A stretch of 64,000 nucleotides of DNA from assembly GCA_017163975.1 (NCBI GenBank), contig JAFFSR010000242.1:2753001-2817000 (forward strand), written 5' to 3'. This DNA is from Anastatus disparis (taxonomy: Eukaryota; Arthropoda; Insecta; Hymenoptera; Eupelmidae). A program made the translations under genes and the position numbers. Under the pieces are notes generated by a model. It saw nothing but the letters and a program-made list of their open reading frames with translations. It searched no databases and was not told where the DNA came from. Shown here one piece after another: positions 12,262 to 55,952 of the stretch (position 1 is its first letter; each line of letters begins with the position of its first letter).

Positions 12262-12873
12262 GGCTGATTCCATTTCAAATCGAACAGTCAGTATACACTC
12301 AAGTCACCAATTACTGCGCTAATGGAGTATGTTATTCTACCCTAAAAATAAGGGTATACGTATTTTTTTATTTTGCTGAAATATCAAAATTGCATCAGAT
12401 ACTTTTGAAAATTGCATACAAAAACTAAATGTTAAAACTGAAAATGTTGAGAATAACTTTAGAGAGCTATCGTTTTACCAATTTCCAATGAATTTTGATA
12501 AACCTTTTTTTATTTTATTTCGTTTTGAGCCCTCTTCAACTCCGTGCAAGAAATTTAAAAAAAAAACTAAAAAATGACTGAGATATATGCATTTTACCAA
12601 AAAATGCACTTTTTATGCACATGCATTTTTCTCGAAAAGGCCATTTTTTTTTTGCTGAAATTTTTTTTGCTGATAGAGGACCAAAATACCTATCTAATAG
12701 TACTTGTTTGATCCCGGCTTTTTTGGTTTGGAGCGAGAAAAAAATTCACAAATTTTGTTGGTGAAAAATGCTTGTATATACGTTCGGAAGTCTTAAGCAG
12801 TCTGCATTCAAACACTGTCGTATGCTTGGCTCATCATTTGTTTACATTTGTATGCATGTATATAGCATCAATA

Positions 12874-12876
<3 letters not shown>

Positions 12877-12945
<69 letters not shown>
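12877..12945. repeat. (AT)n microsatellite
   Basis: This is an uninterrupted AT dinucleotide run inside the long-TIR transposon. Frames of Tyr-Ile repeats crossing it are artefacts. Confidence 0.95.
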
Positions 12946-12948
<3 letters not shown>

Positions 12949-13181
12949 AAATTCGTAATATAAAAATAAATATTTAAACATGAAAAAAAGAATTCTATTC
13001 GTGTATATCTATATTATGTATGTTTCGATGTACAAACAATAGGAGGCTAACTCATGGACAAATACATCGTGTAACCAAAACAGCATATTAGAACTGTTAT
13101 ATAGAAGCTAGTTATTTTTACGGCTGCTTTGAAAGGTGCTTCTCGGGCTTGTGAAAAATTCAACAAAATTGTGAAATAACA

Positions 13182-14213
13182 ATGTCCGAAATTTACTCTT
13201 CTAAAAGAATTTCATGTCCTGATTTTTTTCAAATGCATAAAAAGGTAGTTTATATGAGCAGTAATTCACGTTTTAGACCGTTGGAAGATTTAGCCATTAA
13301 TTTGGCACAGCTTCATCCAGATTTAAATATATTGCCATCTACTAATGTATGTAAAAATTGCCATAAACGCATATCAAAAATGATTTTAAGTGATCTTGAG
13401 TCTATATCTGAAAATGAAATCACTGAACTTTTTAGCGGAAGAGATGATGATTTTATTCCGAAGTCACCCGAACGAATAGAGGAATTAAACGAGAGTATTA
13501 ATTCAGTTTTACCTGAATGCATCTCACCCCTAAAAAGAAAAACTGCAATACCTGAAAATTTTAGAGGAAATTACGTATCTAAAAAGAAAAAATCCTTAAT
13601 TTCAGCTTTTTCTGCTACTGTTGGAAGTAAATTAGAAGATGCGTATGGCATTTCAGTTGAATCAATAGAATCGGACGAAAATTCCACTGAAAACTATTGG
13701 AATGAATTTTTAGAAAATTTTAAATTGGCTTTAGAAAAATGCTCTTCTATTTCGGAGAAAATAAAACTTCTAACTCTACTACCTTCAAAATTAAGCAAAA
13801 TAAAAGTTTGCTCACTATTCCCGAATATAAGCGAGTATATGATAAATAAATCAAGAAATCTCGTGAAAAATAAAGGAGTTAATTCGGAGCCAGATTTATA
13901 TACTGGTCATCCTATTGATGAAAGCACAAAAAATATCGTTATGGAATATTTTCATGAAGAATCGATACAAAATGCTAACGATTTTATAAATTGGGTTCAA
14001 AGTTACACCAATGCAATAAAAATCATTTTACTACCAATAAATGAGATTGAAAGATTTAGAAAAAAGAAAAATATTGAATGGAGTGAGGTTTCTAAATATA
14101 ATGGAATTCAAAAAAGTCATATGTGGTTAAAAAAACTTGGGGAATTAAAATCACATATATTTATTGGCAGGACAGTTATACATGCACTAAATGAAATGAA
14201 AAACAAGAAATAA
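13182..14213 (+). CDS. Transposon-borne protein of unknown family (343 aa)
   Basis: An intact 343-codon ORF lies in the middle of the long-TIR transposon. Residues 12-66 hold spaced Cys/His (SCPDFF, then VCKNCHKRI), a possible zinc-binding region. Residues 115-140 are basic (KRKT, SKKKK), a possible nuclear signal. Around residues 193-240 there is LLTLLPSKLSKIKVCSLFPN then ISEYMINKSRNLV. From memory this resembles a motif (LLP ... K ... F ... S.Y....A..L) in uncharacterised transposon-like animal proteins, where it looks like a helix-turn-helix followed by a longer catalytic part. Here the protein stops at 343 aa with no obvious DDE residues, so it may be a truncated transposase or an accessory DNA-binding protein. 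The TIRs and the intact frame support recent activity; the function is inferred. Confidence 0.75.
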   Translation: MSEIYSSKRISCPDFFQMHKKVVYMSSNSRFRPLEDLAINLAQLHPDLNILPSTNVCKNCHKRISKMILSDLESISENEITELFSGRDDDFIPKSPERIEELNESINSVLPECISPLKRKTAIPENFRGNYVSKKKKSLISAFSATVGSKLEDAYGISVESIESDENSTENYWNEFLENFKLALEKCSSISEKIKLLTLLPSKLSKIKVCSLFPNISEYMINKSRNLVKNKGVNSEPDLYTGHPIDESTKNIVMEYFHEESIQNANDFINWVQSYTNAIKIILLPINEIERFRKKKNIEWSEVSKYNGIQKSHMWLKKLGELKSHIFIGRTVIHALNEMKNKK

Positions 14214-14312
14214 AAGTCAAGCGTCGTGAGACTACATTTAAAACTAAAAATAATAAGCGCAAAAATAAAAAAAAATAATTATCTATAATTATTTTTTTGA
14301 CGCATCCCAACA

Positions 14313-14402
14313 GTGAGAGGCAAGGGGAACTCACTCTAAAAAAGCACCCCGAAGGGAACAGAATCCTTCTACGTCCACGTCGTTGTTCCTGGATAATGCT
14401 AA
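14313..14402 (+). ncRNA. Candidate structured RNA module, copy in the long-TIR transposon
   Basis: This 90-bp block aligns almost gap-free with 33348-33437 in the piggyBac element. GTGAG/CTCAC can pair around AGGCAAGGGGAA, GGGG can pair with the CCCC of AAGCACCCC, and GGGAAC (14354-14359) pairs with GTTCCT (14385-14390). The piggyBac copy has GGAGAC/GTCTCT in the same stem, so two pairs have changed on both strands. It sits about 100 bp after the ORF stop and just before the right TIR. It could be a self-cleaving RNA, an mRNA 3'-end element or a DNA site; the class is unknown. Confidence 0.55.
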
Positions 14403-15493
14403 ACGAAGGATAATATTTAAATGTCGACTGCTTAAGACTTCCGAACGTATATACAAGCATTTTTCACCAACAAAATTTGTGAATTTTTTTCTCGCTCCAA
14501 ACCAAAAAAGCCGGGATCAAACAAGTACTATTAGATAGGTATTTTGGTCCTCTATCAGCAAAAAAAATTTCAACAAAAAAAAAATGGCCTTTTCGAGAAA
14601 AATGCATGTGCATAAAAAGTGCATTTTTTGGTAAAATGCATATATCTCAGTCATTTTTTAGTTTTTTTTTTAAATTTCTTGCACGGAGTTGAAGAGGGCT
14701 CAAAACGAAATAAAATAAAAAAAGGTTTATCAAAATTCATTGGAAATTGGTAAAACGATAGCTCTCTAAAGTTATTCTCAACATTTTCAGTTTTAACATT
14801 TAGTTTTTGTATGCAATTTTCAAAAGTATCTGATGCAATTTTGATATTTCAGCAAAATAAAAAAATACGTATACCCTTATTTTTAGGGTAGAATAACATA
14901 CTCCATTAGCGCAGTAATTGGTGACTTGAGTGTATACTGACTGTTCGATTTGAAATGGAATCAGCCATAAGTTAAAAAATTGAAAAGCTTATAATGAATA
15001 AAAGTTATTGATAGACATTTGCCAAATGTTAAAATTTCTAATTTCAACTATTTGATAAAACAAAAATTTATTTTATTTTATTTATTTAACGAAGAATGAC
15101 TGTTTATAAGACATTCTTAAAAATTTAACAACTGTCCATATTCATACTTTTTATTAAATCTTGAATTATAAGTGACATGCTTCAACAATTTATTTTTCAT
15201 TGAACTTCCTAGAAAAATTAATAGATTAATATATGCCAATGTTAATGCTGTTGAATTGTTTCTATCAAAAGTCTTGATTTAATAGTTTGTATACGACTGT
15301 TAAAACCTGTAATGATACACTGAGAAAGATGATGTATAAAAAGTTAACACAATTCACATAAAAATTACTATAATTCATGTGTGGGTGAAGTTTACCTCGG
15401 GGATACCTCGGAATTTTTTCATTGCGGAAACATTTAGAAAATCGTTTGTAGAATCTATTCCAATGTATGAACATTCACCCTGGGTCCTCCATA

Positions 15494-16354
15494 AGGGTCA
15501 AAGGCGCTCTTAAATAGGTTTTTATTTTTTTTTAGGTTTTCCCAACATTATACCTCACTAAATTTAGTGAAATCTTAAAGATTATATAGAAATACATATT
15601 TCTAATTTTTTTAGCGGGGTTCATTGCTGGGAAAGTAATAAGGATCAATGAAAATATAACCTCAACAGAGAAAATATTTTTTTTCACATCTTCCCAACAT
15701 TGTACTCTGCTAAACTTTTAATATTACAAAAGTCTTACAAAAATACAATTTTTTGCATTTTTTTTAGTTCGATAAATTACTGAGAAAGTAATAAAAGTGC
15801 TAAAAATACAACTTTCTATACAGACTTTATTTTTTTTCAGCTCTCCCCAACCATGTAATCCACTGAACTTTTAAGATTATAAAAATCATAGAAAAATACA
15901 TATCAATAAATTGCCAGCAGTGTACCTTACTGAAAAAATTATGGATATGTATTTTTCTATGATTTTTATAATCTCAAAAATTTAGCGGGGTACAAGGCTG
16001 GGAGAACTGAAAAAAATAAAGTCCATACAGGTAGTTGTCTTTTTAGCACTTTTATTACTTTCACAATAATTTATCAAACAAAACAAAATTGCAAAAGTGT
16101 ATTTTTGTAAGATTTTTTTAATATTATAAAAGTTTAGCGGGGTGCAATGTAGAGAAGATCTGAAAAAAAATATTTTCTCTATTGTGGTTATATTTTTATT
16201 GATTTTTATTACTTTCCCAACAATTAACCTAGCTCAAAAAATAAGAGATACCGATTTCTACATAATCTACAAGATTTTACCAAATTTAGCAGGGTATAAT
16301 ACTGGGAAAATTAAGAAAATAAATAAAAACCTATTCAAGGGCGCATCTGACCCT
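15494..16354. mobile_element. Palindromic MITE built of repeated inverted subunits, TA-flanked
   Basis: The ends AGGGTCAAAGGCGC and GCGCATCTGACCCT are flanked by TA (15492-15493, 16355-16356). The interior repeats a subunit of about 150-190 bp in both orientations, recognisable by TTCCCAACATT.TAC.. and TTTAGCGGGGT. This makes a multi-hairpin structure. The open frame at 16142-16483 crosses the right end and is not a gene. Confidence 0.8.
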
Positions 16355-16430
16355 TATTTCTTAAGTTGCGTGAGCTTTAGGGGCGATGCCAAATCCATAA
16401 CTGTCAATTATAAGTCGGACTGTTTTCTTA

Positions 16431-17124
16431 CCACGAGAGTGTCTGAGTTGCGGGTTACATATCTTGATGCAACTTCGGGATAAGTATTTAGGTACCAAAA
16501 TATGAGTAAAGCCACAGCGGTACGGTCAAACGCTTCGAAAAAGTGAAGTTATGGATGATTATAGTCCTATTTTCGGAAAAATATGAAAAAAGAACTCCTT
16601 ATTGAAGTGTAAATAATTCTGTCTGGAAATGTCTTTAATAAATTCACAATAACTTAAATGAAAGGAGAGAAAGCAAGCTTTAATTTGCTAGTTTCCGAAT
16701 TAAAAAATAATAATTAGAACTAAAGTTATGCTTGTTTAAAATTAAGCATCAAAAGAGTACTAAAAATCACCATCCTTCAAAATTTAGACTATTTTTAGTA
16801 CTTTCTTACTGCTCAACTTTAAAAAAGCATAACATTAGTTCTAATTATTATTTGTAGTTCGGAAACTAGCAAATTAAAGCTTGCTTTCTCTGCTTTCATT
16901 TAAGTTTGTGAATTTATTAAAGACATTTCTAGACAGAATTATTTACACTTCAATAAGGAGTTCTTTTTTCATATTTTTCCGAAAATAAGACTATAATCGT
17001 CCATAACTTCAGTTTTTCGAAGCATTAGACCGTACCGCTGTGGCTTTACTCATATTTTGGTACCTAAATACTTATTCCAAAGTTTCATCAAGATCTGTGA
17101 CCCGCAACTCAGACACTCTCCTGG
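16431..17124. mobile_element. Palindromic MITE with TTA target duplication (family H2)
   Basis: The arms of about 320 bp begin CCACGAGAGTGTCTGAGTTG and end with the complement ...GACACTCTCCTGG. TTA flanks both sides (16428-16430, 17125-17127). The terminal motif C(C/T)AGGAGAGTRTC is shared with the 468-1128 and 42884 elements, so these are related PIF/Harbinger-type families. Confidence 0.85.
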
Positions 17125-17127
17125 TTA

Positions 17128-19569
17128 GTTTACCAAATTCGTATCGAAATTATGTATTTTTAGCGCCAAAATGACTTCGTTAGTGTTAACACGTTAAAAA
17201 GAACATTTTAGGAAAATACGCAAGTTTTTTGTAAATTTCAAAAATTTTTGAAAAATACAGAATCTTAAAAAAAATTGTTCTTATACGAATATGTTGAATT
17301 TAACATTTTCTGAACTGAAAATCAGACCATTATTATCTTATTATAATTAGCATTTTTCTAAAGTAATGATGAATACTACAAGATTGAAAAAAGTGTATTT
17401 GCTACGGATTTGTTTAAAAATGTTTAAGAAAAAATTGTGGCTTAATAAAATTAACGTTGTTGAAAAGAGAAACAAAACACTTTAATTTTTGTGTATTAAT
17501 ACACTGAAAATTTTTTTAAAATATTGACAAATAGTAAACATAAATTTCAGAAACATTAAAAATTTTAATTAAAAATAATGTAATGAAACCAAACAAATTT
17601 GATAAAACCATTAAATTAACATTTTTTTTCATAAAGTTAAGAATTTATAAAAGAAAAAATGTTTGCTTTGGATTAAGAATAAGTATATACTCAAATGAAT
17701 TATTTTTGAAAAAAAAATTTCTTTTGTATGATAATTTATTATTTATATTGAAAAAATGTATGCATCTATAATAAAAAATAATTTATTTAAGTTGTTACAT
17801 CTGTATATATTACCCTTATTATTATTTCTATTATCTCTTAAGACTGTAATATCATACTGAGTAATTCTATTTTTATTGTGCAATATTATTTATGCATTTT
17901 ATGTTTTTTTTTTAATTTAATTGTATATTACACGTTTTTTTGTACATATATTACAAAATAAAAATATATCTATCTATATACGTGAATGTATCTTTTTCAA
18001 ATATAAAATAATGCAATATAATTATTTCAATATAAATTTATAATCGATATCTTAGTTCACACTCCTAATAATATCTTCGAAGCATGTATAAAAAAAAATT
18101 TTATGAGAAAAATATTATTTTTTGAGCTAATAATTATTATATGAATAAGTGTTTACTTTTAATTTCTTTCTATAGTTTGTAAGAGCGAAGTTGTAATTCG
18201 GCTAGGTGCAAGCGCTACCTCAGCGTTTTAAGCGCGATATGAAGATATCCTGTCAGAAATGCGAATGTTAGAAGAGTTTCTCACGGTCCAAATGGTTAAC
18301 AAGTTTTTAAGACGCATGCAGTTTTTTTTTATCTTACCTTCTTGATGTGAAATAATTTTTTAGTCAGTCTGTAACTAACCCTTTCAAGATCGACTCCTTC
18401 CTTGATCTACGGTATAAACAACATAAAAGTCAATCGTCAAAAAAAAGCTAGTTGTATGCGCGCCTAAGATTATTAAAATAAAAATTTTTATAGAACCAAA
18501 ATAGGGTCAAATTTGATCGCGCGCTTAAATTAGCAAGTGTATAGAGAGATTTTCTTCTGCAATAATTAATCCAATTGTGATAATTATTTCAATAGTAATA
18601 TTATTACAAATTTAAATAAATTATCGGCAGAAATATTTTCAAAGGTTTTTATTTCTGGGTGACTCGTTTCTGTAACATCAATAATTCAAATATATTAAAA
18701 ATTATAAATGAATAACTAAATTGAAATCAATATTTGTGACAGTGCGTATTTATTTAATTCAACCTCAGAGACACTACGCCCACTTTAGCATAAAAAGAAA
18801 AATCTTCGACACGCGAGCCATACCGTATTAAATTAACTGATTTAGCCTCCCTACCATGAAAACCATTATTGATTAGAAATATTCCACAAATAATAAATAA
18901 AATTTAATACGTCCAAGAAAACCAAAAAAAAGTGACTGAACGTAACACATGTATTTACTTATTCTTAACCGAAAAATAAACAATTTTTCTGTCTGGAGTT
19001 ATTTTCTACAGCTCGTAGATTTAGAGATAATCAAACCTGAAAAAAGTGATTTTTTAACGATAATCAACATAACTTCCGACCGGCTTAATCTAAATCCATC
19101 ATATAGCTCTTATTTTTAAAAAGAGTCAAATAAGAATTTTTTCCATTTTGTTGTATTAATATCCATTGACTTTTTCAAAAATTACACAATTTTTTTTGAG
19201 GCGAGAAAAAATGTTTCTTTATTTTTATTATTCTATTGTAGAATACCTTAATATTGTAGAAAATTTTAATTATTTTTACTAAAACCAATGGAAAATAAAA
19301 GATATTACTTAACTCTTTAAAACTTACTTTGGTTTTTTGAGATTCATGAATTATTTTTGTCGGTGATATAAAATTTTAAAGATTAGCTAAATTGTATTTT
19401 TTGGCCAGAAACTTATGCACGCCACTGTAAATATTGACCTAATTTGATGATTTTTAAATTAATTTGCAATGATACTTATCTTTATTAAAATGAATTGAGA
19501 TATTCCAAAAGATTATAGCTTCATCACTGGGTTTTTTTAATGTAAATGTCAGGATCATATCCTGGAAAA
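17128..19569. other. AT-rich intergenic DNA with one mariner-type terminus
   Basis: No gene is seen. The segment 19020-19435 ends GGCCAGAAACTTATGCACGC then CACTG and TA, a mariner-type end whose relatives lie near 23920 and 35460. A GC-richer stretch at 18180-18300 (AAGTTGTAATTCGGCTAGGT) is unexplained. Confidence 0.4.
19395..19433 (-). repeat. Terminus of the GCATAAGTTTCTGGCC repeat family
   Basis: Read on the minus strand this starts CAGTGGCGTGCATAAGTTTC and continues TGGCC. Diverged relatives occur at 23921-24000 (forward) and 35110-35475 (reverse). CAGTGGC next to TA is typical of Tc1/mariner ends. Confidence 0.6.
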
Positions 19570-19576
19570 GCAATAT

Positions 19577-21068
19577 CAACGAAGATAGATCCTAATAGAA
19601 GCGCAGAACCCCAAGGCGCTTTGAAGCTAGAAATATATATTTCTATACATATGTAGTTAAATACATATGTAGTTGGTACCCCGACCAGACGCGGCGTTAA
19701 CGTCGCTTTCAGTAGGTAAATGATAACGACCGGTCGGTAAATGAACGGCAGTCATCATTGCTATTTATTCTGATTATATTTGATAACTATAATAAAGTTA
19801 AAAAAATATAATGGAACCCCATGTAATTATGAAAAAAATAAAATTAAGAGATTGAAATAATGAAAAACAATTTAAGTGAAACTTAAACTGTTATTCTTAA
19901 ACCCCAAAAGGCGAACAATGTATATACTACATTCTTGGATCTGAAATTTATAATCAGCTGTGGCGTAGTGGCTAAGTCGTTCGTTCGACAATCTTTTTGA
20001 TGTCGATTCAATTCCCGATCAGGTTCTTTTTTCTTTTCTTTTTTTTCTTTTGCAATTTGTATTAATAAAAGCAAATGTATGAAAAATTAAAATTTTTGTA
20101 AAATTAAATTTTTTTAATATTTAATTTTGATAAAAATTACATTCTTTTTATTAATAATTTTGATAAAATTAAATTTTTTTAATATTTAATTTTGATAAAA
20201 CTTAAATTGTTTTAATATTTAATTTTATTAATAAACTATGATTTTTATTTTTTTTAATGCATACAATTTAAAAAATGAATAAAATAAATCTGGAAGTGAG
20301 TAAAATCAAATATGTTTTTTTGTTTTGAAAATAAGAAAAATATTCTTTTGAAAAAAAATTATGAAAAATTTGTATTTTACTCACTTCCAGATTTATTTTA
20401 TTCATTTTTTAAATTGTATGCATTAAAAAAACAATAAAAATCACAGTTATTAATAAAATTAAATATTAAAACAATTTAATTTTATCTAAATTAAATATTA
20501 AAAAAATTTAATTTTATCAAAATTATTAATAAAAAGAATTTAATTTTTATCAAAATTAAATATTAAAAAAATTTAATTTTACAAAAATTTTAATTTTTCA
20601 TACACTTGCTTTTATTAATACAAATTGCAAAAGAAAAAAAAAAAAGAGAAAAAAAAAACCTGATCGGGAATTGAATCAAAAAGATTTTGTCGAGCGAACG
20701 ACTTAGCCACTACGCCACAGCTGATTATAAATTTCAGACACAAGAATGTAGTATATAAATTGTTCGCCTTTTGGGATTTAAGAATAACAGTTTAAGTTTC
20801 ACTTAAATTGTTTTTCATTATTTCAATCTCTTAATTTTATTTTTTTATAATTACATGGGGTTCCATTATATTTTTTTAACTTTATTATAGTTATCAAATA
20901 TAATCTGAATAAATAGCAATGATAACTGCCGTTCATTTACCGACCGGTCGTTATCATTTACTTACTGAAAGCGACGTTAACGCCGCGTCTGGTCGGGGTA
21001 CCAACTACATATTTCTAGCTTCAAAGCGCCTTGGGATTCTGCGCTTCTATTAGGATCTATCTTCGTTG
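19577..21068. mobile_element. 1.5-kb near-perfect palindromic element with tRNA-like segments in both arms
   Basis: The arms of about 740 bp begin CAACGAAGATAGATCC and mirror each other to a centre near 20340. GCAATAT flanks both sides (19570-19576, 21069-21075), a 7-bp or slightly eroded longer duplication. Each arm contains a tRNA-like A box (GGCGTAGTGGCTAAG) and B box (GATTCAATTCC) at 19957-20033 and 20660-20730, so the palindrome probably arose by inverted duplication of a SINE-bearing segment. There is no coding capacity. Confidence 0.85.
19957..20033 (+). repeat. tRNA-derived SINE-like segment in palindrome arm
   Basis: A pol III type A box (TGGCGTAGTGGCTAAGTCG) is followed about 40 bp later by GATTCAATTCCCGATC, a B-box-like sequence, and then a pyrimidine-rich stretch. 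A clean cloverleaf does not fold, so this is not a functional tRNA. The mirror copy is on the other arm. Confidence 0.55.
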
Positions 21069-21075
21069 GCAATAT

Positions 21076-23120
21076 ATCATCTGCACGTATATAAATAAGT
21101 ATACGTATTTTACACATAGCATATATTTTCTTAATAATTTATTTAAACAACATTTTTCTAAATCAATTAATATTACTTCAGCAAGAATGGAATTTACGGA
21201 ACTAACTATTGCATAACCAAATGTTTGTAACAATTATTGTTGTGAAAAAATTATTGTACCATAAATTGCACAATATTAAGAAATTCATGTGTGTTAAAAA
21301 GTCAAGTATCTTAAAAAATTTCACTAGATTTCCTGTAACTGCATTAACATTATTAAAAAACCATTTATCTTAGATTATGTATTTTAGTATTGATGATCAG
21401 TAAATATAATGATTGTTTTGATTTACTCAAGACAAATAAACTTGTTACAATTTCATGTAGATAAAACAACAAAATTTTAATTTGAATGAAAAATTATCAA
21501 AAATCTGATTAAAAAATTATTAATGTGCTTATTGACATAATAGATTAATAAAGTTTTTAAAAAGTCAACATTTCTATAGAAAAAATTAGATTGTTTACAA
21601 ATGTCAACAGCATTTCTTTTTAAATTTATTTATGAAAAATGTTTTAAGTTAAAACAAAAATTAAATTGCAAACTGATTGCACCTCTTTATATTAATGCAT
21701 TATTACTATTGTATTAACCATATTAATAAAAATTATTAAATGCCAATTAACTATTTCATCAATAAATCATTGTTAAAATTGTATAAACACAAATTCTTAT
21801 TTCAATCACCACTGCCTTCGTCAAAATGAATTATGAATACGTCACAAAGAAAACATTTTTTCAATCATAAATTGGTCATTGATTATAAAGAAGCATAATT
21901 CAATTGAATTGAATCAACCATAAATGATCAATTAGGTTGAGAAAACGAGCGAGAAAGAAAAATTAACATAAAGAATTAAAGTTCATTATTGCGATTATTG
22001 TTTATCAATTAAAATTACGTAAGATACATTAAACAAATAATCAAGTCATAAAAATAAAAAAAGTTTTAATTAAATGTATTTCAATAATTGGAGCATTAAA
22101 GTATTTTAAAATCTATAAAATACTTATTTTTGTGAATTCTGAAAATAATTAAGTATGTGTGCTCAATGAATTAATACTAACACTGATTTGTTTATAAATT
22201 AAATACAATTTTAAAACTTGTTGCATATTATAATTTATTTTAATTTCATCTATTTTCAGTGTAGTTCATAATACTATTTTAAAAATTTGAATCATTGAAT
22301 TTTGCAATAATAAAATTATAATAAAAAATAATTTTAGCCCTAATAAATGAAATATTTTAAAACTCTAATTTAATTGTAAATTCTAATTTACAATTATATT
22401 ATCTCTGCATAATATTGATAACTGAAATCATGAATTCAAAAAAGAATTTTCCAGCTAAACGAGAAAATTTCTTTTTAAAATAATTTTTCTGTTAACCATA
22501 ATCAAAAATATTCAAAATTGTTTTAAAAATCATAATTCACTAGCATATGGAACACATAACTCATGAGACTGAGTTTAATTCTTGTTCTTGCAAAATTCTT
22601 GTTTTTGCAAAATTTACCGCGTCTGAGATTGAGTAACACCAGTATTAAAATATATGTTTTAATAAAAGGCAATCAGTTGTTAAGAACTTGATCAAATCAT
22701 AATAATAGTAACAAAAACAGTGATAGTACTTAAAATAAGTTATTTAAAGAACTTAATTATTTTGTAAAAATATTACTATTATGATGTAATTTTTTAAAGA
22801 AGATTAAGATGCAACTAATGAAATACAAATATAATAATAATTATACATATCAGAATATTTCTTAATCAAAAACATCTATTGTAATAGTGTTTACTCTTGC
22901 GATCTCTGACGCAAAACGCATTCAAATTGCAAATGAAGACAACTTTTATTTGAACGATGAATAGAAATCATATCAAAATGAAATTTCAAAGAAACGAATG
23001 ACAAATGAATTAATATCGGATTAGATAATTTGTTTGAAATAAATTATCATCAAATCGTAATTTATTATTACGATTAGGGCATCGAAGTTTATTTTGAATT
23101 GCAAATTATCAAAATACTCA
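21076..23120. other. AT-rich DNA upstream of protease gene 1
   Basis: I see no coding frame or bounded repeat. The 22900-23120 part, next to the promoter, has several GAATTGCAAAT-like words. Distal control elements may lie here but cannot be read from sequence alone. Confidence 0.4.
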
Positions 23121-23121
23121 G

Positions 23122-23130
23122 TATAAATAA
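23122..23130 (+). promoter_or_regulatory. TATA box of protease gene 1
   Basis: TATAAATAA lies about 65 bp before the start codon. The context CTCAGTATAAATAAGAAC matches TTCAGTATATATAAAAG at gene 2, supporting a shared promoter. Confidence 0.7.
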
Positions 23131-23192
23131 GAACTCCAAATGTTTTTCAAACATACCATTGCTATCGGTGGGATATACAAGATAATATCAAC

Positions 23193-24212
23193 ATGAACAA
23201 AATTGGTATTTTGTTACTTACCGTTTTGGTGATTGGTAAGTTTAAATAATATATTTAAAATTATTTCATTTTAAAAGCGACTACAGAAGTTGGGTTGAAT
23301 TCCATTTCGTGTTACTCTTATAGTTTAAAAAATTTGTTGGACTTTTAAGTTTACCAATTTAAGGGATTTTAAAAAATGGTAGAGAATTAAAAGTTTTGAT
23401 AAATTTTACATACTAAGAGTATGATTTGTAAATTAAAAAATTAAACTTGACTTAATCTTTATTTAGAATTCAGGGAAGGAAAGTATGAAACGTCTGAGAC
23501 GTTGAGAGCATTGGTCAATGATTTTAAAAAAATTAATAGCTCGTATTAAATTATTAATTATATTCCATTTTCTCATACATAAAGTTTTGTACTTGTAAAA
23601 TTTTTCTTTTCATTTTATAAAACTAGCAATTTTAAGCGCGCTGCGCGCGCCTTGTTTTATTTGTTTATTAGTTAACATAATTCATTGAAATTTCAAAATT
23701 TTTTTCTAAATTTCAAATTTTTGTCACTTGTTTTATTTTAACCAATCAAAACTGTCTTATCGTGATGACAGAGTTTATCCATCACTTTTTTAAAAGAGGA
23801 ATAAATATTGCAGATTTTTTATATGCAAATAATTGAAAAATAATATTTTTAAAACAATCAACGATAAAAATTCAATCAAATGATAGAAAATTTCTATAAA
23901 AAGTTGAAATATAATTACGTGCATAAGTTTCTGGCCACCTCATATCAAAATCTTCGAATATTCAAAGTTTCTGTTTCTTAAAAAATCAGACTAGCCAAAA
24001 ATCAAAGATGGTTTTAAAGTGCAAAGTTTATATCCTGTTGTACGTTTTTTGCAGTAAAAAAGTGAATGTTTTTTTTCCCATTCTTCTTCCCACAAAGTTA
24101 ACGGATTTTATAAAAATAAAATGAAATAGAATAAGTAACTACTATAAGAAATTTAAAAAAATAAATAAACTGGTGTGGCAGTCGTGGGGACTGGTCGACA
24201 GAAGCTATGCTT

Positions 24213-24270
<58 letters not shown>

Positions 24271-27200
24271 TAGGGAGTGTGCCTCTTGCGAAAATCATAA
24301 TTATTTTTTTATTAGAATTAGGGTAAGTGTGCCAGTTATCGTTGCCCCCCCGACTACCGTGCTCCTTCGATATTTTAATGCATTAATATAGGTTTAAGCC
24401 TTAATCAATAATACAAAAAAATTTTTTTAATATTTTTGAAGTATAATTTAACTATTAGAAAAATAAAAATTTAATTTATCGACATTTTATATTGTATAAA
24501 TAATGTTTGAAATTTTTGTAACGTGATTTATGCATTTTTAGTGCGCGCGTTATCAAAAAGCTTAAGGATTGCATGTTTAATTCAATCATTTAAAGTATTA
24601 AAAAATGTATATTAATAATATGTATATGCATTTTACTATAACAAAATACTTACAAATTTCGAAAAAACTTACAATTTGCGTTTTTAAATTATTTTTTATT
24701 ATTTATTTATAAAATATAGTAACTGGAACAGATTTAAGCATATGATTCAATTATCGTGCACGATAACTAAACCAATTTTTTGGTATAATCTTAGTTATCG
24801 TGCCCTCTAACATGTGAGCATCGAAGAAAACATAACCTCAAAAAAAGAGAAATCGACGAAAAATGCACGGTGTTCGACGCTCGATATTTGGTCGAGGGCT
24901 TGCTTACTGACAAAACGCATTTAGTTGGGGGCGCGGAAACTGACACACGGTATAGAAATCTGAAAATTGAACAACACGGTATTTGACGCATGCATCAATT
25001 CTTATATTTTTAATAATATTTCAAATATTTTTCTATACATAATTAATCAATCATGCTTATTAAATAAAAGATGCTTCAACGTTTATAACTGATATCAATA
25101 GTTATCGAGCATTAATAGAAAAATCTGTTTAATTTGATAAAATCTGTAAGAGGTTACGTTAAACCCACGGTAACTGGCACATTTACCCTATTTATTTTTA
25201 CCTGATGTATTTTCGTATTAAAAAAAATACAAATAATGAAATTGATTTATATTAATATTAAAAAAAACAAGGAAGTGTGGTACTTGAGAAAATTATAATT
25301 ATTTTTTTAATAGAATTGAATATTTTTCATTTGATGTATTATTTATTTAAAAATAATAATAATGAAGTTTATTAACAATCAATTATTAAAAAAATATATA
25401 TTTAATTTAAGTACGCGTGATTGTGATAACGTGAATAATAAACAGATACACACAAATTAATTTTATAAATAGAGGAGGCCCGAGTCAAAAGTAACAGGGG
25501 TAAGAATTAACAGTCAATTTATAGCGACGCAAACAGTCCTACAGGTTCTGCAGTTGACTTAATACGTTTAATATAATTGCTTCTGGCATATAAACATATT
25601 CAGTACCTTGCAGTACATCGCAGAGAAAAAGCGTGCGACGTAGCAATTTTTTTGACAGAAACAAAAAAATTTTCACCTTATTTAAATGCTTGTTTTTTAT
25701 TTCATTTGATGTAATCAATAGAATTAAAATTATTTTATGTTAATGTACTCTAAAATAATTAACAATTACATTAATATTTAAAGAATTTTTTAAAATATTT
25801 TTAAAAAATGTGTCTGCTGGGATAAGTATTAACAAATCTTTGAGGCAAATATTAACGCTGTTAATACGTAAGGATATATTTGAAAAGAATGACGAAATGC
25901 GATGGATGAAAAATTTATTTAATAAAGATTTCACTGAAATCTTTCTCATAACATTATATGAGGTTTCTAGTTATGATCTCTCTATAAGACAAAAATTGAT
26001 GTTATTTTTACTTTCAAAAAAGATAAAATAATCATTTTTAATATTTTTTAAAATTTTGTTTTTTATAATTTATTTGTTATGTGGATGTACACTTGGCGGA
26101 AAGGATATTTTTCCGAATGTGTACCTCAAATGGCAGCGCCGCATATTTTACCACAGACATAAGAAAACTTCGAATTATGCATTGAGTTTCGCATCATTAT
26201 TATTTTGTTTTTTCTTATAGGTTATTCATGCAAAATTCAAATAACAATTTAAATTTTATTGCTCATATAATTTAATTTCACAATATTAAATTCTATATGA
26301 TTATTGAACTAAGAAATAAAAATTTTATTTAATAAAATAATAATTCGAATCATGAAAAAAGAAAGTAATATTGTTTGTTTACTAAAATTATGTCATTAAG
26401 TAATGAGTAACGATGATGCGAAATTTGCTCTATAATTTGGAATTTTCTTATGCCTGTGGTAAAATATGCGATGTTGCCATTTGAGGTTAACATTCGGAAA
26501 AATATCCTTTCCTCTAAGTGTACATTAAAAAGTATATAATTCTTGTTTACATTAATTAAATACTTGAATTTATTATTAACTTGCATTTTTATAATAAAAA
26601 AATGTGATGTTAATACCTACCTCGAACGCGGGGTAAATATTAACACGGAAACTTTTTAATAAATTCCCTCCTAAAAACATCTATTGATGATTTTTTAGAA
26701 GTTCTTGCACTAAATCATAGCTGAAGTAAAATTACTAACATATACGATAGGTGGGACACTAAAAAAATACGTAGATTAAAAAATAGGGATACTTTTTTAA
26801 AAAATGTTAATACTAGTCCCGGTCTCCCCTAGTATCTCTTTCTCTTTTTCTATATTGCTTATAGTGATTAATAACACAACTATCTAGGGATATGAGAGAA
26901 AATAAAATAATATTGGAAAATTCATTACTAAAAAATGTATTAAGATCATAATGTAAATACGAATGCATACTTTACATACGTATAATTTATTGTAAATGAA
27001 AATGAAAAAATAGTATTTGCATAGTTTGCATATCTAATAATCGTATTTTATCTCAGAAACTATAGGTTTATGGTAACTAAAATAAGCTACATAAGTTTGT
27101 GATTCTATTTTTTTATATATTTGGATATACGTAATTGTGCTCATTTATTAGTTGAACAACTAACCTAAATCTACGCAAACATTTATGAACAGATGTGAAA

Positions 27201-29658
27201 TATAAGAGAAAGAAAGAGAGAAAGAGGGAGAAGCGAAGAAAAAAAACATGCTGTCAGAATCGTAACACACGGTTTTTATACGTTTAGTCCCGTCGGCCCA
27301 ACCGCACGCATAAGAAGCATATCTTCAAAAATCTTTTTGCGAAAATTTTTTTATGTAAAAAAACTTAATTTAATAGTAAAAAAAAATTTTGAATTATTTT
27401 AAGATTTTTTCACAAAAATATAAAATTGAAAATATTTTTTTATGTAAAAAACTTAATTTAATAGTAAAAAAAAATTTTGAATTATTTTAAAATTTTTTCA
27501 AAAAAATATAAAATTGAAAACTTTTTAACATATGTATTCAAATATTTTACTATTATATAAAAGGACAGCATTTGTTTGAATTTTCTCAAATATCTCAAAA
27601 ACTACTAAACCAATCGTTTTTAAATTTTAAATTTAGATTCTTTATAATGTGACGAGTGTCATAGGCTATATAAATATTAACTTTTTTAACCAATAATTGC
27701 AATAAAATAATTATAGACCTACATTATTAACGCGTAGGTAACTAAACTATATTTTTACGGCGTTTCTTGGTTGCCCAATAGGTGGCGATTAATTTTTTCG
27801 TTTACTTTATTAAATTGGCACGGTAGAAATATTTATATCATTAAGATATTCTGTAATCATACAACTCATTTACAATAAAGTTTATTGCATCCATATCCAT
27901 TTGTTTTCAATATTCCGCATGATTAATCCTATCAAGAAAGTTAGTGAAAAAAGAGATTTTAAAATTTATTTTCATAGTCTAATTTTTTATATTTTGAAAA
28001 AATTTTTATTTTTGTTCAAAATGTTTCATTTTGTAAATATTTTTTAGTTTTACATGAGGACTAAACATTTATTAGCTTATTAAAATTTAAGTTATAGATC
28101 AAAAATAAATTTTTTAACGCGTTGAAAGACATTTTTTGCTTTCTAAAATTTTTGTCTAAATCGAAATTAAAAAAAAATTTTGGTTTATTGATAAGGAAAT
28201 TCAAGTGAATTTTCCAAGATTCTATTTAAAGATATTTAAAAATATTTGTAGGAAAATAATTTTTTTTCAATCTTGCAAATATTTATAATTTTTCACAATA
28301 AAATGCTTATGATAAAATTTTTTTTTAGTAAGAAATATATTTAGAAAATTTGACATTTTTATATAACAAAAATTTTGTTTAAATTTCTTTATTTTTTCAA
28401 AAATTTTAAAAATTAAACAAAATTTACTTTTCATTTTTTTCCATTTTTTAAAAGAAAAATTGTAATGTGCTTTTCTTACAAATTTATCAACCAATTCGTA
28501 AAGAATACTCTTTTTTAACAACACATATATTTATTTTTTATTTTACAAAAAAATGCTCAACATGAAAATTGTCTTTTTCAGTGTAGAATATGTTTACGAA
28601 ATTTGTCATAATTTAACATAATAATTTATTTTTCCCAATTTCTTTATTTTTCAAAAATTTTGAAAATTAAAAGTTTTACAAATATTTCATAATTTGAAAT
28701 TTTTTAAGCAATTTTTTTAACATTTAGGGCGTAAAATTCAATATTTGGTGGCTATCAATAGGGGCTAAGATATCTCTTTTTTACCGTAGGGCAAAAAGTT
28801 TTTTCACATGTGTGATTGATTTTTTCCTGCAATAAGAAATTTACTTTTTATTTATTAAAGTTGTACTGAAAGGACGAGTCGATGTATAAATAAAATAATG
28901 AGTAGATTGATCAAAGAATTAATGGATAGTCCGATGAGCAAGTAGAGAAATATCTTAATATTTTGATGAATTGATGGATTGATTAATTTATGGGTCAATG
29001 GTTTGATAGGTGGATAAATAAATATGACCATGGATCAATGGTAGGATAAATAATTGTCAATGGATTAATGAGTTGATGGGCGGATAGTTAAATATGACAA
29101 TGGATTGACGTGCAGATAAATACTTATGTCAATGGGTTGATGAGTCAATATCGGATAGATTTATACGCCTATGGGTTGATGGATCGATTGGCGGATAAAT
29201 AAATTTTTGGTGGGTTCATAAATGGATTGATGAATTGGTTGATCGATTGATAGATGAGTCAAAGAATTGATGGGTGGATGGATTAACGGGTCGATGGGTT
29301 GATTTGTCGAGAGTTAATGGTTTGTTGGGTGGATTGAATAATAGGTCGATGGGTCAATGGGTTGATTAGTTGATAGATTAATGATTAATTTTATTAATTT
29401 TGTTTTTTTTTAGTTAAATGATTTTAATTAATGTTATTATAGAAAATTCATTTCATAATCTAAAAAAAATTTTTAATTTATTTAATATCCATTAAAGTTG
29501 TAGTTCCTATAAGATTACTCTGGGATTCAGGGCCGGATTAAGAAATTGAGGTCCTAGGCTGATTTCATTCCAAAGGCCCACCCCCCTCCTTTATTTTCAT
29601 AATTTTTCCAAATTCATATATTTACATTTACAATTTAAAATAAAATTAAAATTTTTAA

Positions 29659-29696
<38 letters not shown>

Positions 29697-29697
29697 T

Positions 29698-29752
<55 letters not shown>

Positions 29753-32700
29753 TACATATTAATGATTAAAAAGGACAATCACAAAAACATTATTAAGTTT
29801 TTACAAGATATTTTTATTTTTTAAAAGTAGAGAATGTTGTTTACATTACATAAATTTTTTTCTTATTTTGTTTTGAATAAAATCACGAATGATTTCATCA
29901 AAATTAATAAATTTCAAGATTTCATTCTCAATCGATATTCGTGCTAATGCTGATAAGCGATCGTCATTCATGGTGGATCTATAAGAATTTTTAATTCTTT
30001 TTAAAACGGAAAAGGACCTCCTAAATTTTTTAATAACATTTTCAATTAATCGATGGTATTGCATATTTTTGATTAATTTAAATTTATTACAAAAAATCTA
30101 TATTTTATTTTTGGTTCATAAAAAACGACAATTGTATTACCAAGTTATAAATATAAACATTGTTTTTGCCGTAAAAACTCATGTTAAATTTCTAATTTCT
30201 ATAATTTTTTTCTCTTTAATTGGTTCAATGACCTTATATTTTTAAAATTGCTATGAAACACCAGTAGATACTTTTTATAATATTTTTGTACTAAAAAACC
30301 TATTTTTTAGTTAAGTTTAACTGTTTTTCCGTTTCAGACTTCACTCGAAAACTAATGAAAATTTTATATTTTTTTATAGAATAGAATCGTTTACTCGTCC
30401 ATAAATCTATTGAGGCCTGCTCTTACTTTTGTTTAAAAATATTTAATTTATTAATAATAACGAAAATTTAGATTGGACTAGAACAGAACTATTCGGCCTC
30501 CTTTTGAGGATTTTATTTGATTCCATTCTAAAAATATTTTTTTAAATTATTAAATTACAAACAATACTTTTACTTTACGATATTTCGACGAATAAAAAAC
30601 ATTATAATAAAATAAAAATTTATTAGATAAAAGAAAATGGTTTTAAAATTATTAATATAAAATAAAATTCTGTTTATTAACCCATTAACGTCCAAAATGT
30701 CAAAATTTCTTGCACGTTTTCAAAGTGATTTTTTCCTATGTAATTGGCGTTGAAAAAATTCTTGAACCACATATTCTGATGTAAAATTTCATGCTCTTTC
30801 AGAATCCGTTGCCAGAATCATGATAAATTTTACAGGAAAAGAGATATACTCGATTGAAACATAAAAAAACACCTAAATTTTCGAAAAAAAAAATTTTTAG
30901 GATTTTTTTCGAAGTGTTACGGTGGAGATATCACCTTGCGACCGTGATCAAAGGTGATCATGGGAGTTGAAGTTTAACAGGGAATTTTTTTGTTGACCTT
31001 GAACCATCGCTTCTTTACAAAATGGCGGAAAAAACGAATTTTTTTTTTTCAATCTTCATCAATTTTTTTCTCAAAATCTATGGTCTTTAGAAAAAAATTC
31101 ATAAAAACAAAAATGCCTTAGAATCGCTTGAGGAATATTGTCAAATTTTTTCAGAATTTTTTGAGACATTTTTGAAAATCCCATTTCCCAAGTTTCCCGG
31201 AAAATCAAAAATTGTCTCAAAAAATTCTGAAAAAATTTGAGAATGTTCCTCGAGTGATTCTAAGACATTTTTGTTTCTATGAATTTTTCTCTAAAGTCCA
31301 TAGATTTCGAGAAAAAAATTGATAAAATTGAAAAATAAAAATTCGTTTCGGCCGATGTTTTGAAAACCTATTGGTAAAAAAACGTTCTGTCTACGAAAAC
31401 TCAGAAAAAATTTTACAATATTGCTCGAATGATTCTAACTTATTTTCATTCTTTTTTCAAAGACTTATAGATTCCGACAAAAATTTCATCCTTTATTTCC
31501 ATTTCATTTCGGCAGATAAGCGTAATTTTTGGTCTCATGTATTCATGAATATTCGTCTTTTTTTGTTCTCTTCTTTCGTGTTTTTGTACATACGGATGAG
31601 TGATAAATAAACGAAATCATTAATTTCATACATTATGTCGCGGAAACGTGTAAGATCTTCTGAATATGAATCAGATTCTTCAGATAGTGATTCAGAACGC
31701 AACGTATTGATTCCGGATCCTGGCTATTCAGGTTCCGATGATTCTGGTTCCGATTTTGATTCAGATTGCAAACATGAAATACCCAATATCACTTACAATA
31801 AAGCTCGTGCAAATTATTCTGAAAAACAAGATAAACTTGAAAAAGGTCATGAATTCACTTGGATTGAGGGTGAAAAGTTACACCCTGATTCTTGTGAAGA
31901 TAAAGTATTATTGTCCGAATCGCAAAAAAAGAAAATACGTAGGAGCGAACCTTTTCAATTGTTTGAAACCTTTTTTTCTATTGAAATGAAAAAATATATT
32001 ATTGATGCGTGTAAAGACAATGGTTATGATCTGAAATTGAAAGATCTTGATACTTTTATTGGAATAGTTATTTTTTCTACATTCAATCCCAGAAAATCAC
32101 AGAAAGATTACTGGTCATCTGATCCATATTTATCTAATGAAGTAGTTTCTTCTGCAATGTCTCGCCAACAATTTGAAATCACAAAATCTAACTTGAAGTT
32201 TTCAAAAAACAAAGACAAAGATTCAAATGATCGAGGATGGCGCGTTCGTTCTCTACTGAAACTTTTTCAAAATAACATCATGAAATTCGGAATATGGAGA
32301 AATGCTCTATCCGTTGATGAGATGATGGCCAAATCCTATGCAAAAACTGTTTTGAAACAATTTATTCGAGGAAAACCGATAAGATTTGGTTTGAAATTTT
32401 GGGGCTTGTGTACTTCGGACGGCTATCTACTGAATTTGGATCTTTATTGCGGTAAGAATTCTCAAATTGGAGATAAGTTATCTAAATGTGCTTTAGGTTC
32501 ACGAGTAGTATTATATTTATTACAACCATTTTTTCAAATAATAAGTTATAACAAAATTTCTCAATTTCATCTGTACTTTGACAACTTCTTCACGAACATG
32601 GATTTGGTATTACATTTGAAGAAATTGCGTTTGAAATGCACTGGTACTATCAGAGATAATCGAGTCAAAGAAAAAAATGTGCTTGATAAGAAAGCTCCAA

Positions 32701-35700
32701 GAGGGACATATGTGGTGAAGCACGACGTAAACAGTGGCATAAATTTCATTACTATCATGGATTCGAAGCCCGTCTCAATAGCTTCAACTGCAGCAGGTGT
32801 CAATCCTCTATCTATTTCAAAAAGATACAGCGCAGAGGCTAAATCTAAAATTGAAATACCTTTTCCGCAAGCTTTTCACCTATATAACAAATTCATGGGA
32901 GGTGTTGACCTGCATGACGGACATTGCAATGGCATACTCCCAAGTATACGATCAAAAAAATGGACATGGGTAGTTTTTATGAGACTTATACAGGCGTCTA
33001 TTACTAATTCTCTTGTAATTTTCAATGCTGCTAACGATGGAAAGAAAAAATATGGAATAAAAGAGTTCACTATTTCGATTGCCAAATACTACTTACAAAA
33101 AAGTAGTCGCAAAAGTAAAGCACATGAACGATCTAATAGTGACAAATTGAGGATTTGTTCGAATGGAAACTGTCCAATAAGAACAAAAATTTTCTGCAAA
33201 ACATGTAATTTAAATATTTGCAATAAATGTTGGCTAAAAAAGCACAACTAAAAGTATCAATAAGTGAGAGGCAAGGGGACTCACGGAAAACAAGCACCCC
33301 GAGACGTGAGAGGCAAGGGGACTCACGAAAAACAAGCACCCCGAGACGTGAGAGGCAAGGGGACTCACGAAAAACAAGCACCCCAAAGGAGACAGAATTT
33401 TACCACGTCCACGCCGTAGTCTCTGGGTAACGCTAAGAGTAAAAAAATTTTCCTAAAATTTGCACAGAAATCGTTTTTTACCAATAGGTTTTTAGAACAT
33501 AGCGGCCGAAACGAATTTTTATTTTTTCAACTTTATCAATTTTTTTCTCGAAATCTATGGACTTTAGAAAAAAATTCATAAGAATAAAAATGTCTTAGAA
33601 TCACTCGAGAAACATCCTAAAATTTTTTTAGAATTTTTGGAGACATTTTTGAAAATTCCATTTCCCAAGTTTCCCGGAAAATCAAAAATTGTCTCAAAAA
33701 ATTCTGAAAAAATTTGAGAATGTTCCTCGAGCGATTCTAAGGCATTTTTGTTTTTATGAATTTTTTTCTAAAGACCATAGATTTTGAGAAAAAAATTGAT
33801 GAAGATTGAAAAAAAAAAAATTCGTTTTTTCCGCCATTTTGTAAAGAAGCGATGGTTCAAGGTCAACAAAAAAATTCCCTGTTAAACTTCAACTCCCATG
33901 ATCACCTTTGATCACGGTCGCAAGGTGATATCTCCACCGTAACACTTCGAAAAAAAATCCTAAAAATTTTTTTTTTCGAAAATTTAGGTGTTTTTTATGT
34001 TTCAATCGAGTATATCTCTTTTCCTGTAAAATTTATCATGATTCTGGCAACGGATTCTGAAAGAGCATGAAATTTTACATCAGAATATGTGGTTCAAGAA
34101 TTTTTTCAACGCCAATTACATAGGAAAAAATCACTTTGAAAACGTGCAAGAAATTTTGACATTTTGGACGTTAATGGGTTAAAATATAATATGAAAATCC
34201 ATAAATAAATATTAAAAAATTGAATTTACATTTTTTTTGTTTATTTTACATTTAGTTCCAAAATTTCATCTTTAAAAATGAGGCCCCGCTTCAAAGCGGG
34301 GCCCGGAGCTCCAGCCTCCCTAGCCCCCCTTAATCCAGCGCTGCTGGGATTAATATATTAAACTCCCTAAAATTGTACAATGGTACTCAAGCATAGATGA
34401 AAGTTATGCGAAAGAATGTTATTGAAACTATTATTCTTACAGACTAACAATGGGAGAAATCGCCTAAATATCCCGTGAACTAATGATCCCTACTAATTTA
34501 CTTTTTCAACTTAAGAGACTTTAATTTTCAATCAAACTTTTATTTGGTATCATAATAAGGCTCAAGACCAAACATTCAAATATGTTAAAATGATTTGTAC
34601 ACCGATTGTTTTTCATATGGACAGTTGTATGTACGACTTTCAAGAACGGATAAATAAGAAAACCAAATCATTCTATTACCATATGGTTTACAAACAAAAA
34701 ATATTGTTTATTCTAAGTTTCTTCAAGAATAATATTTAATAAAAATAATAATTTCTGTGTATTTATTTCTATGTCTATCGAGTTCCACCAAGCTATAGCG
34801 CGGGCGAAGCCGCGACGGGGGATGCTAGTTTTGATATATTTTATAATTATTTTTTTAGAAACATTTACTAACTGAATTTTTGAAAATTAAGTTTAAATAT
34901 CGATTGGCTCTTTTTAAAAATAATTTTGTTAAAAAATAACTTGATCATGAATTTTGGGTAGAAAATATAAAAATAATTCAAAAGTTATATTTTTTTAATA
35001 ATAAATTAAATTCTTTACATAAAAAAGTTGTGACAAAAAATAAAAATAAAATTTTTTTCTAAAAGGATTAGTAGCTACTTTTTTGAAATGAAAAAACAAA
35101 CGTTTTTTTTCTTAGGAGTTTTTTTATGCAGCATATCGATCGAAGATACTAAAACTTGAAAAAGTAATTTTTTAAACAAAAATTGGCATAACTTTCGACT
35201 GATTCAATAAAAATGGACCATATTACACTTATTTCAAAGAAGAAACAAACACGCATCTATTCCATTTGTTTTTTTTTAAATCTGTAATTCTTTCAAAAGT
35301 CAAAAATTTTTTTTCCGGAAAAAAAATTAAAAATGACATTTAATTTTTTTACTGTTAGTAAGGCAATTTAAAATTATTTATACTAAATCCGATGGGATAT
35401 CAACTTTACGCTAAAACTATCTTTGATTTTTTAAGAAACAATTTTCGGCTGGCTAGAAACTTATGCGCGCAAAAACATTCTATTCTATTCGAATAAAAAA
35501 ATTAAACCTCATATTTTTAACAATAATTGTTAATTACATATGAATACATTTTCTTATTTAATGATTGTAGCCCGAACTTTTATACTTGAAAGTCAAAAAA
35601 ATATAATTATTTGTGTTGCTCATTTGAAGAACTCATTATTAAAATTCTAAAATTTGTTATTGATAATATATTTCTAGGTGCTCATGCGGATGAGCCCGAA

Positions 35701-49881: not shown

Positions 49882-55952
<6,071 letters not shown>

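Follow-up and report, generated by a model that had tools for sequence, protein, structure and literature searches.

Why should two DNA transposons with unlike proteins and unlike ends carry the same compact block of sequence between their open reading frame (ORF) and their right inverted repeat? The question is raised by a 64,000-nucleotide (nt) stretch of contig JAFFSR010000242.1 (positions 2,753,001 to 2,817,000, forward strand; assembly GCA_017163975.1) of the eupelmid hymenopteran Anastatus disparis, hereafter the window, in which a first-pass annotation had described such a block in two elements that we call e1 and e2. Here, we determine that the 3' half of the block is a hepatitis delta virus (HDV)-like self-cleaving ribozyme fold, with cleavage itself predicted from the fold model, follow the module through several transposon groups of the host genome, and propose a role for it at the 3' end of transposase mRNAs.

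The two elements and their parts were delimited as follows, in window coordinates.

12262..14966, + strand: element e1, a DNA transposon with long inverted repeats, flanked by ATAA (self-BLAST; ends read directly)
12262..12812, + strand: left inverted repeat of e1 (self-BLAST)
13182..14213, + strand: ORF of e1, 343 amino acids (aa), without a Pfam match
14416..14966, − strand: right inverted repeat of e1, beginning 4 nt past ribozyme helix P2 (self-BLAST)
30681..34178, + strand: element e2, a piggyBac transposon, flanked by TTAA (self-BLAST, Pfam, ends read)
30681..31390, + strand: left inverted repeat of e2 (self-BLAST)
31635..33251, + strand: piggyBac transposase of e2, 538 aa, PF13843 (Pfam, E 1.2e-57)
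33464..34178, − strand: right inverted repeat of e2 (self-BLAST)

By self-BLAST the inverted repeats of e1 are about 551 bp long and 99% alike, and those of e2 about 710–715 bp long and 93.5% alike. With its DDE_Tnp_1_7 transposase (PF13843), TTAA target site and inverted repeats, e2 resembles known piggyBac transposons. BLASTN of e1 against e2 has its best match in the block (80% over 90 bp, E 2e-13), after which come the extra repeat units of e2, and sequence and BLASTN together confirm the two blocks, at 14313-14402 and 33264-33440, in transposons that are otherwise unlike.

A fold descriptor, written from general knowledge of the HDV-like fold and applied to both strands of the 64 kb, matched the window at e1 and e2 only, and it gave 1 match in 100 Markov-regenerated windows. 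In both places the modelled ribozyme lacks helix P4, a form that we term type A.

14354..14411, + strand: e1 HDV-like ribozyme without P4 (type A), predicted cut between 14353 and 14354 (fold descriptor, alignment)
14354-14360/14384-14390, 14363-14369/14405-14411 and 14371-14373/14381-14383: predicted helices P1, P2 and P3 of e1
14374-14380, 14391-14392 and 14398-14402: loop L3, P1.1 GG and GCTAA of e1
33388..33444, + strand: e2 HDV-like ribozyme without P4 (type A), predicted cut between 33387 and 33388 (fold descriptor, alignment, model search)
33388-33393/33419-33424, 33398-33403/33439-33444 and 33405-33407/33415-33417: predicted helices P1, P2 and P3 of e2
33408-33414, 33425-33426 and 33432-33436: loop L3, P1.1 GG and GCTAA of e2

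Both copies have P3 ACG/CGT, loop L3 TCCACG(T/C), P1.1 GG and J4/2 GCTAA; P1 has seven pairs in e1 and six in e2, where the seventh is absent, and G faces U at its start. The 6-bp stem picked out by the first-pass annotation, GGGAAC/GTTCCT becoming GGAGAC/GTCTCT, is real and holds two double changes, but it is more than a stem around a 25-nt loop, being P1 of a nested double pseudoknot that extends to 14411 in e1 and 33444 in e2. Helix P2 (ATCCTTC/GAAGGAT in e1, TTTTAC/GTAAAA in e2) had been missed, and it holds three double changes between the two copies: three of seven pairs are changed on both sides, three are kept and one is lost in e2. Two plain hairpins are ruled out, as P2 crosses P1 and, in the 5' half, stem S2 would cross S1. 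A new ribozyme class is ruled out as well, the fold being HDV-like. As in the known HDV-like ribozymes (Rfam RF00094, RF01787 or drz-agam-1, and RF02682), it is a nested double pseudoknot with a P1 starting in G, a TCC.CG core in L3, P1.1 and a catalytic C in J4/2; unlike them, type A has no P4 and is missed by Rfam, and the copies lie after the transposase frame of DNA transposons.

At its own cut-offs Rfam gave no match anywhere in the window. A relaxed scan placed the Anopheles ribozyme drz-agam-1 (RF01787) on 14353-14409 at 15.1 bits (E 1.1, cut-off 37), which is not significant alone, and gave no match on the e2 block. Rfam gave none at L056 and seven other type A loci (host-genome loci are labelled L and a number). 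The expected P4 helix is absent from e1 and e2, with at most one pair at its place. The available text of PMC8256844 describes P4 as variable in length, and minimal HDV-like ribozyme forms are on record, to go by the title of a paper.

We searched the 939-Mb host genome with both blocks. All 40 places scored for e1 (of 1233 candidates) were identical, and for e2 the 40 scored of 1180 candidates gave 76 matches, many of them diverged. With identical and near-duplicate copies dropped, the alignment comprised 14 distinct type A ribozymes, in which 94.9% of 272 cells pair, compared with 37.5–57.0% in slid controls. P1, P2 and P3 are paired in nearly all cells, with compensatory changes in P1 and P2. 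Double changes fall in 20 cells of 8 pairs against a shuffle mean of 6.8, and further pair types, one of five measures, are no higher than in shuffles (11 vs 10.7), the shuffle control being one that does not preserve the relatedness of the copies. The genome search, alignment and covariation test suggested with the first-pass annotation thus give an excess of double changes over shuffles; on balance the evidence favours its claim of a selected, folded RNA common to unrelated transposons, whose role would be self-cleavage or the making of mRNA 3' ends. Particular residues of L3, P1.1 and J4/2 are essential to HDV-like ribozymes; P1.1 is paired and GC[TA]AA is present in all 14 type A rows, the L3 core is altered at single positions in L019, L021 and L048, and L056 has ACTAA. 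A model of P1 and P3 finds L056, which was outside its training set, at 83.5 bits (e2 90, e1 81.1), and with the same model the type B copies described below reach no more than 13.1 bits (E 0.68).

The 5' half of the block is likely an H-type pseudoknot, judging from the pairing of its two stems.

14313..14350, + strand: candidate H-type pseudoknot unit of e1, S1 GTGAG 14313-14317/CTCAC 14330-14334, S2 GGGG 14324-14327/CCCC 14347-14350
33264..33387, + strand: candidate array of three pseudoknot units of e2, beginning 12 nt past the stop codon

The layout of GTGAG..CTCAC and GGGG..CCCC that had been annotated is present in both blocks, and the first half is indeed triplicated in the piggyBac copy, with units starting at 33264, 33306 and 33348. 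Across 22 elements we found 105 units, 1 to 14 in tandem per array, of which 104 were parsed. Most have the form GTGAG-AGGC(A/G)A-GGGG-A-CTCAC-(10-12 nt, with GCA almost always last)-CCCC. Each of the five pairs of S1 is present in 102–104 of the 104 units and each of the four of S2 in 95–102, and the outer S1 pair is C-G in 80, A-T in 7 (from three families) and unpaired in 9. With no more than one double-change cell in S2, the pseudoknot is likely, though it stands on less firm ground than the ribozyme. Its CCCC stops 3 nt before the predicted cut in all 14 aligned copies, and the array starts 3–23 nt past the transposase frame in eleven loci (L033, L034, L037, L038, L041, L044–L047, L049 and L052) and about 100 nt past it in e1.

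To what kinds of element does the module belong? Twenty 10-kb loci were picked for diversity from the e2-block matches, and 19 were examined for inverted repeats. Repeats with arms of 276–616 bp bracket frame and module in 16 of the 19, with no clear answer for L035, L039 and L044; L048 was missed by the motif used. On these 19 loci we reject an ordinary interspersed repeat scattered outside transposons, the case that had been named as fatal to the annotation. The module lies in sense orientation at the right inverted repeat or within it and, wherever we recognised a transposase frame, downstream of that frame. Its hosts are piggyBac elements (L033 by PF13843; L034 and L035 by reading), Tc1/mariner-like elements (the L041 family, with PF16087 above cut-off and PF01498 below; L040, with HTH_29 above cut-off; L036 and L051 by reading) and two unclassified groups, one whose zf-AD match is weak and does not reach cut-off (L037, L038, L044, L049 and L050) and the other that of e1. 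Unrelated transposon families therefore do share the module, as had been claimed.

Place and strand agree with this picture beyond the chosen loci. When 85 of 114 matches to the L041 (mariner) protein were compared with the best 40 e2-block places, 14 of these places lay downstream on the same strand, at up to 520 bp in 13 cases and at 1.7 kb in the other, while the opposite strand had none. The inverted repeat itself contains the module in L040 and L042, so that an outward-facing copy stands at each end. Elements of the L041 family have a left-end copy that is complete in L041, L043, L046, L047 and L048 and partial in L045 and L052; its P1 and P3 pairs are broken, whereas the copies after the ORF largely keep them. 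This loss is probably one ancestral event, and the decay fits the pattern expected if selection acts solely after the ORF. Pattern scans of viral contigs returned 0, 4 and 0 stretches, and the four fail the fold descriptor.

A sister form of the module, type B, is found in other piggyBac families. From 85 genome matches of the e2 transposase we picked 28 in which the match reaches at least residue 529 of 538 and read 350–400 nt downstream; near-duplicates among these flanks are L058/L060, L057/L064, L066/L074, L069/L078 and L062/L072. A strict descriptor recognised an HDV-like ribozyme in 15 of the 28 flanks (14 type B; L056 type A), whereas the reverse strand gave 0 and shuffling 0.015 per set of 28; for L066 and L076 its automatic choice of J4/2 and P2' differs from our reading by hand. 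Four more ribozymes were recognised by eye: that of L059 has an insertion, that of L062 is truncated where the piece ends, and those of L067 and L074 are damaged. Type B has a P4 hairpin, both by hand reading and in four RF02682 alignments, and type A looks like type B minus this hairpin (GGGCAACG...CGGCTAA becoming GGGTAACGCTAA). L079 carries a long hairpin-like insert between P1 and P2 and L059 an insert after L3, and both are uncommon additions to the HDV fold.

We scanned 14 of the 28 flanks with Rfam, selected since a ribozyme had already been read there, and RF02682 (HDV ribozyme) matched nine of these at the predicted place and strand (E <= 0.0043). Two pass its gathering score of 44 (L064 48.8, L058 48.6), the matches of L077 and L079 are weak, and L056, L059 and L066 have no HDV-type match. 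The Rfam scan suggested with the first-pass annotation thus gave a divided result: type A is below cut-off or has no match, and type B matches RF02682. Across 20 ribozymes of both types (rows chosen by hand), P1 has 15 distinct 5' strands; a mean of 6.95 of 7 positions pair with the strand's own partner against 4.02 with a foreign one, and 44 of 370 foreign combinations are fully paired.

Upstream of the ribozyme, type B piggyBac elements have an A tract in place of the pseudoknots. In all 14 type B descriptor matches the 100 nt before the predicted cut are 65–83% A and 5–22% T, and A makes up 29–50% after the ribozyme (up to 100 nt; L072 and L077 left out). A run of 21 A ends at the predicted cut in L054, and one of 42 A ends 5 nt before it in L059. 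As background, a content of 65% A or T is attained by 1 of the 6390 100-nt windows of the 64 kb.

Across the whole genome we counted 88 + 93 matches (181) to a type-B-like pattern and 0 + 0 to the reversed pattern. Among the first 100 places, at least 13 distinct piggyBac genes are followed by the pattern on their own strand, 127–417 bp downstream, and none has it on the opposite strand, with about 0.02 expected; behind the 13 are 15 script-counted matches, two being second pieces of the same genes. Of the type-B-like places listed, none follows any of the 85 compared mariner matches at a distance of 1 kb or less. Ten outward-facing pairs 1.2–2.2 kb apart occur among the places listed, one of them (C23) around a piggyBac gene. 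Such pairs of ribozyme-core matches, about 1.2–2 kb apart on contigs C7, C12, C31, C61, C107, C116, C117, C269 and C272, suggest an element that carries a ribozyme at each end.

How might such a module act? HDV-like ribozymes cut at the first nucleotide of P1, according to the available text of PMC4908430, and the mRNA 3' end would therefore be the pseudoknot array or the A tract. In the mechanism that we propose, the ribozyme would cut the transcript at its own 5' edge, past the 3' untranslated region (UTR), at a point ahead of the right inverted repeat or slightly within it, leaving a transposase mRNA without a normal poly(A) tail. In type A the array, made up of 1 to 14 H-type pseudoknots and stopping 3 nt short of the cut, would stand in for the tail, and in type B piggyBac elements the genome-encoded A-rich tract would do so, either of them protecting the mRNA in cells and serving its translation. 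Removal of the right inverted repeat from the mRNA would be a second, compatible benefit. The strongest argument for a 3'-end role is that two unlike substitutes for poly(A) each directly precede a ribozyme. We think it probable that the block is a 3'-end module of transposase mRNAs, in which predicted self-cleavage leaves an array or A tract replacing poly(A). The broader proposition, that DNA transposons of several superfamilies end their mRNAs by a ribozyme with a tail written in the DNA, that the module has been swapped between unrelated transposons, and that the cut frees the mRNA of a repeat able to form double-stranded RNA (dsRNA), has in our judgment an even chance of being right.

The same cut could have a different main purpose. 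Severing the right inverted repeat from the transcript would avoid fold-back into dsRNA and RNA interference, with the knots or A tract keeping the cut RNA alive, and we regard this as a serious possibility, if somewhat doubtful as the main job: the 16 bracketed loci, and e1 and e2 likewise, have long inverted repeats with the ribozyme at or inside the right one, and the repeats of L040 and L042, together with the ten outward-facing genome pairs, put an outward-facing ribozyme at both ends. It is compatible with the 3'-end explanation, but long repeats alone need neither an A tract nor a pseudoknot array. Self-cleavage within a 3' UTR is expected to lower mRNA, and active ribozymes might thus be negative regulators that destroy most transposase mRNA and hold copy number down; an A tract or array right before the cut looks like protecting the 5' product, not removing it, and despite the numerous e1 copies, identical at all 40 scored block matches, we consider this unlikely.

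Two further explanations move the function away from the 3' end of the mRNA. The block could be a part acting at the DNA level, such as transposase binding sites or subterminal repeats, whose RNA folding is incidental; its tandem units near the inverted repeat do resemble subterminal repeats, and in some families it lies inside the repeat. The compensatory changes in P1 and P2, the HDV core, the Rfam matches of type B, the strand bias after ORFs and the occurrence with unrelated transposases all make this very improbable. Slighter still is the chance that the ribozyme frees an RNA 5' end or drives the translation of an ORF lying downstream, a role put forward for R2-like retrotransposons: it lies downstream of the transposase frame with the right inverted repeat next, and no ORF of at least 150 aa was seen downstream of the predicted cut in e1 or e2, even though the same ribozyme family is known at the 5' ends of non-LTR (long terminal repeat) retrotransposons in the available text of PMC8256844 and PMC4035085.

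Several observations weigh against the 3'-end role itself. Type A copies fall below Rfam cut-offs or have no match at all, and the right-hand copy of L048 has an altered L3 core. The double-change cell of S2 lies in a unit of L051 whose stem is broken elsewhere, and other departures in S2 break the pair or give G-U. Nine of the 28 piggyBac flanks show no ribozyme (L053, L055, L063, L073, L065, L080, L070, L071 and L075), and ribozyme-less flanks are A-rich as well, with 51–69% A in the first 200 nt of L055, L063, L070, L073 and L075. L055/L063/L073 and L065/L080 are two families, L053 keeps a pseudoknot array without the ribozyme, and the place of L075 among the nine is provisional, its sequence being A-rich right up to where the reading stops. 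In L039 and L042 no transposase frame was recognised, and the ORF of e1 looks internally deleted. In 20 of 22 elements an AATAAA follows the ribozyme at a distance of no more than about 840 nt, which is unsurprising in AT-rich DNA, and ordinary polyadenylation beyond the cut could therefore still take place.

The available text of PMC8256844 and PMC4035085 places HDV-like ribozymes in retrotransposon 5' regions and scattered genomic places. In the titles and abstract beginnings listed, a set with most subscription papers and preprints outside it, there was no HDV-like ribozyme in a DNA transposon and no ribozyme 3'-end module of piggyBac or Tc1/mariner; one paper of the set mentions both HDV-like ribozymes and a transposase in its text. 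R2, L1Tc/ingi and other non-LTR retrotransposons are, in the available accounts, mobile elements carrying the HDV-like fold; theirs stands at the element 5' end, whereas here it follows the ORF of elements with inverted repeats. The Tobamovirus upstream pseudoknot domain offers another likeness, the available accounts describing pseudoknots of the viral 3' UTR that act in translation and replication. These are tandem H-type pseudoknots on an RNA without poly(A), with a tRNA-like end next where here a ribozyme follows, and the likeness is one of layout, with no claim of shared sequence. In laboratory designs an encoded poly(A) or MALAT1-type triplex, then a ribozyme, forms the transcript end; the logic of a stabilising 3' end followed by self-cleavage is the same, but those are engineered and the arrangement here would be natural.

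In comparisons with public proteins, the N-terminal part of the e1 ORF is like P0001–P0003 and its C-terminal part like P0004, and among the 120 matches listed for the e2 transposase, those with a name come from ants and wasps. P0004 and P0006, which are near the e1 family, carry the label Escherichia coli in public sources, and those records may be contaminated with animal DNA. Elsewhere in the window, pieces of a PIF1-like helicase (PF05970) at 51898-53419 on the − strand are perhaps from a Helitron or related element, an ORF with a zinc knuckle (PF00098) at 1283-1960 on the − strand is perhaps a retroelement gag, and a Trypsin domain (PF00089) at 35590-36051 on the + strand is an ordinary host gene or gene piece.

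To our knowledge, animal mRNAs acquire their 3' ends by cleavage and polyadenylation, with the exception of replication-dependent histone mRNAs. If true, the role proposed here would add another route, in which a ribozyme and an encoded tail or pseudoknot array are borne by mobile DNA and portable between elements. It would also extend HDV-like ribozymes from the 5' ends of retrotransposons to the 3' ends of DNA transposons, explain the A-rich 3' UTRs of transposons, and supply compact natural parts for RNA engineering.

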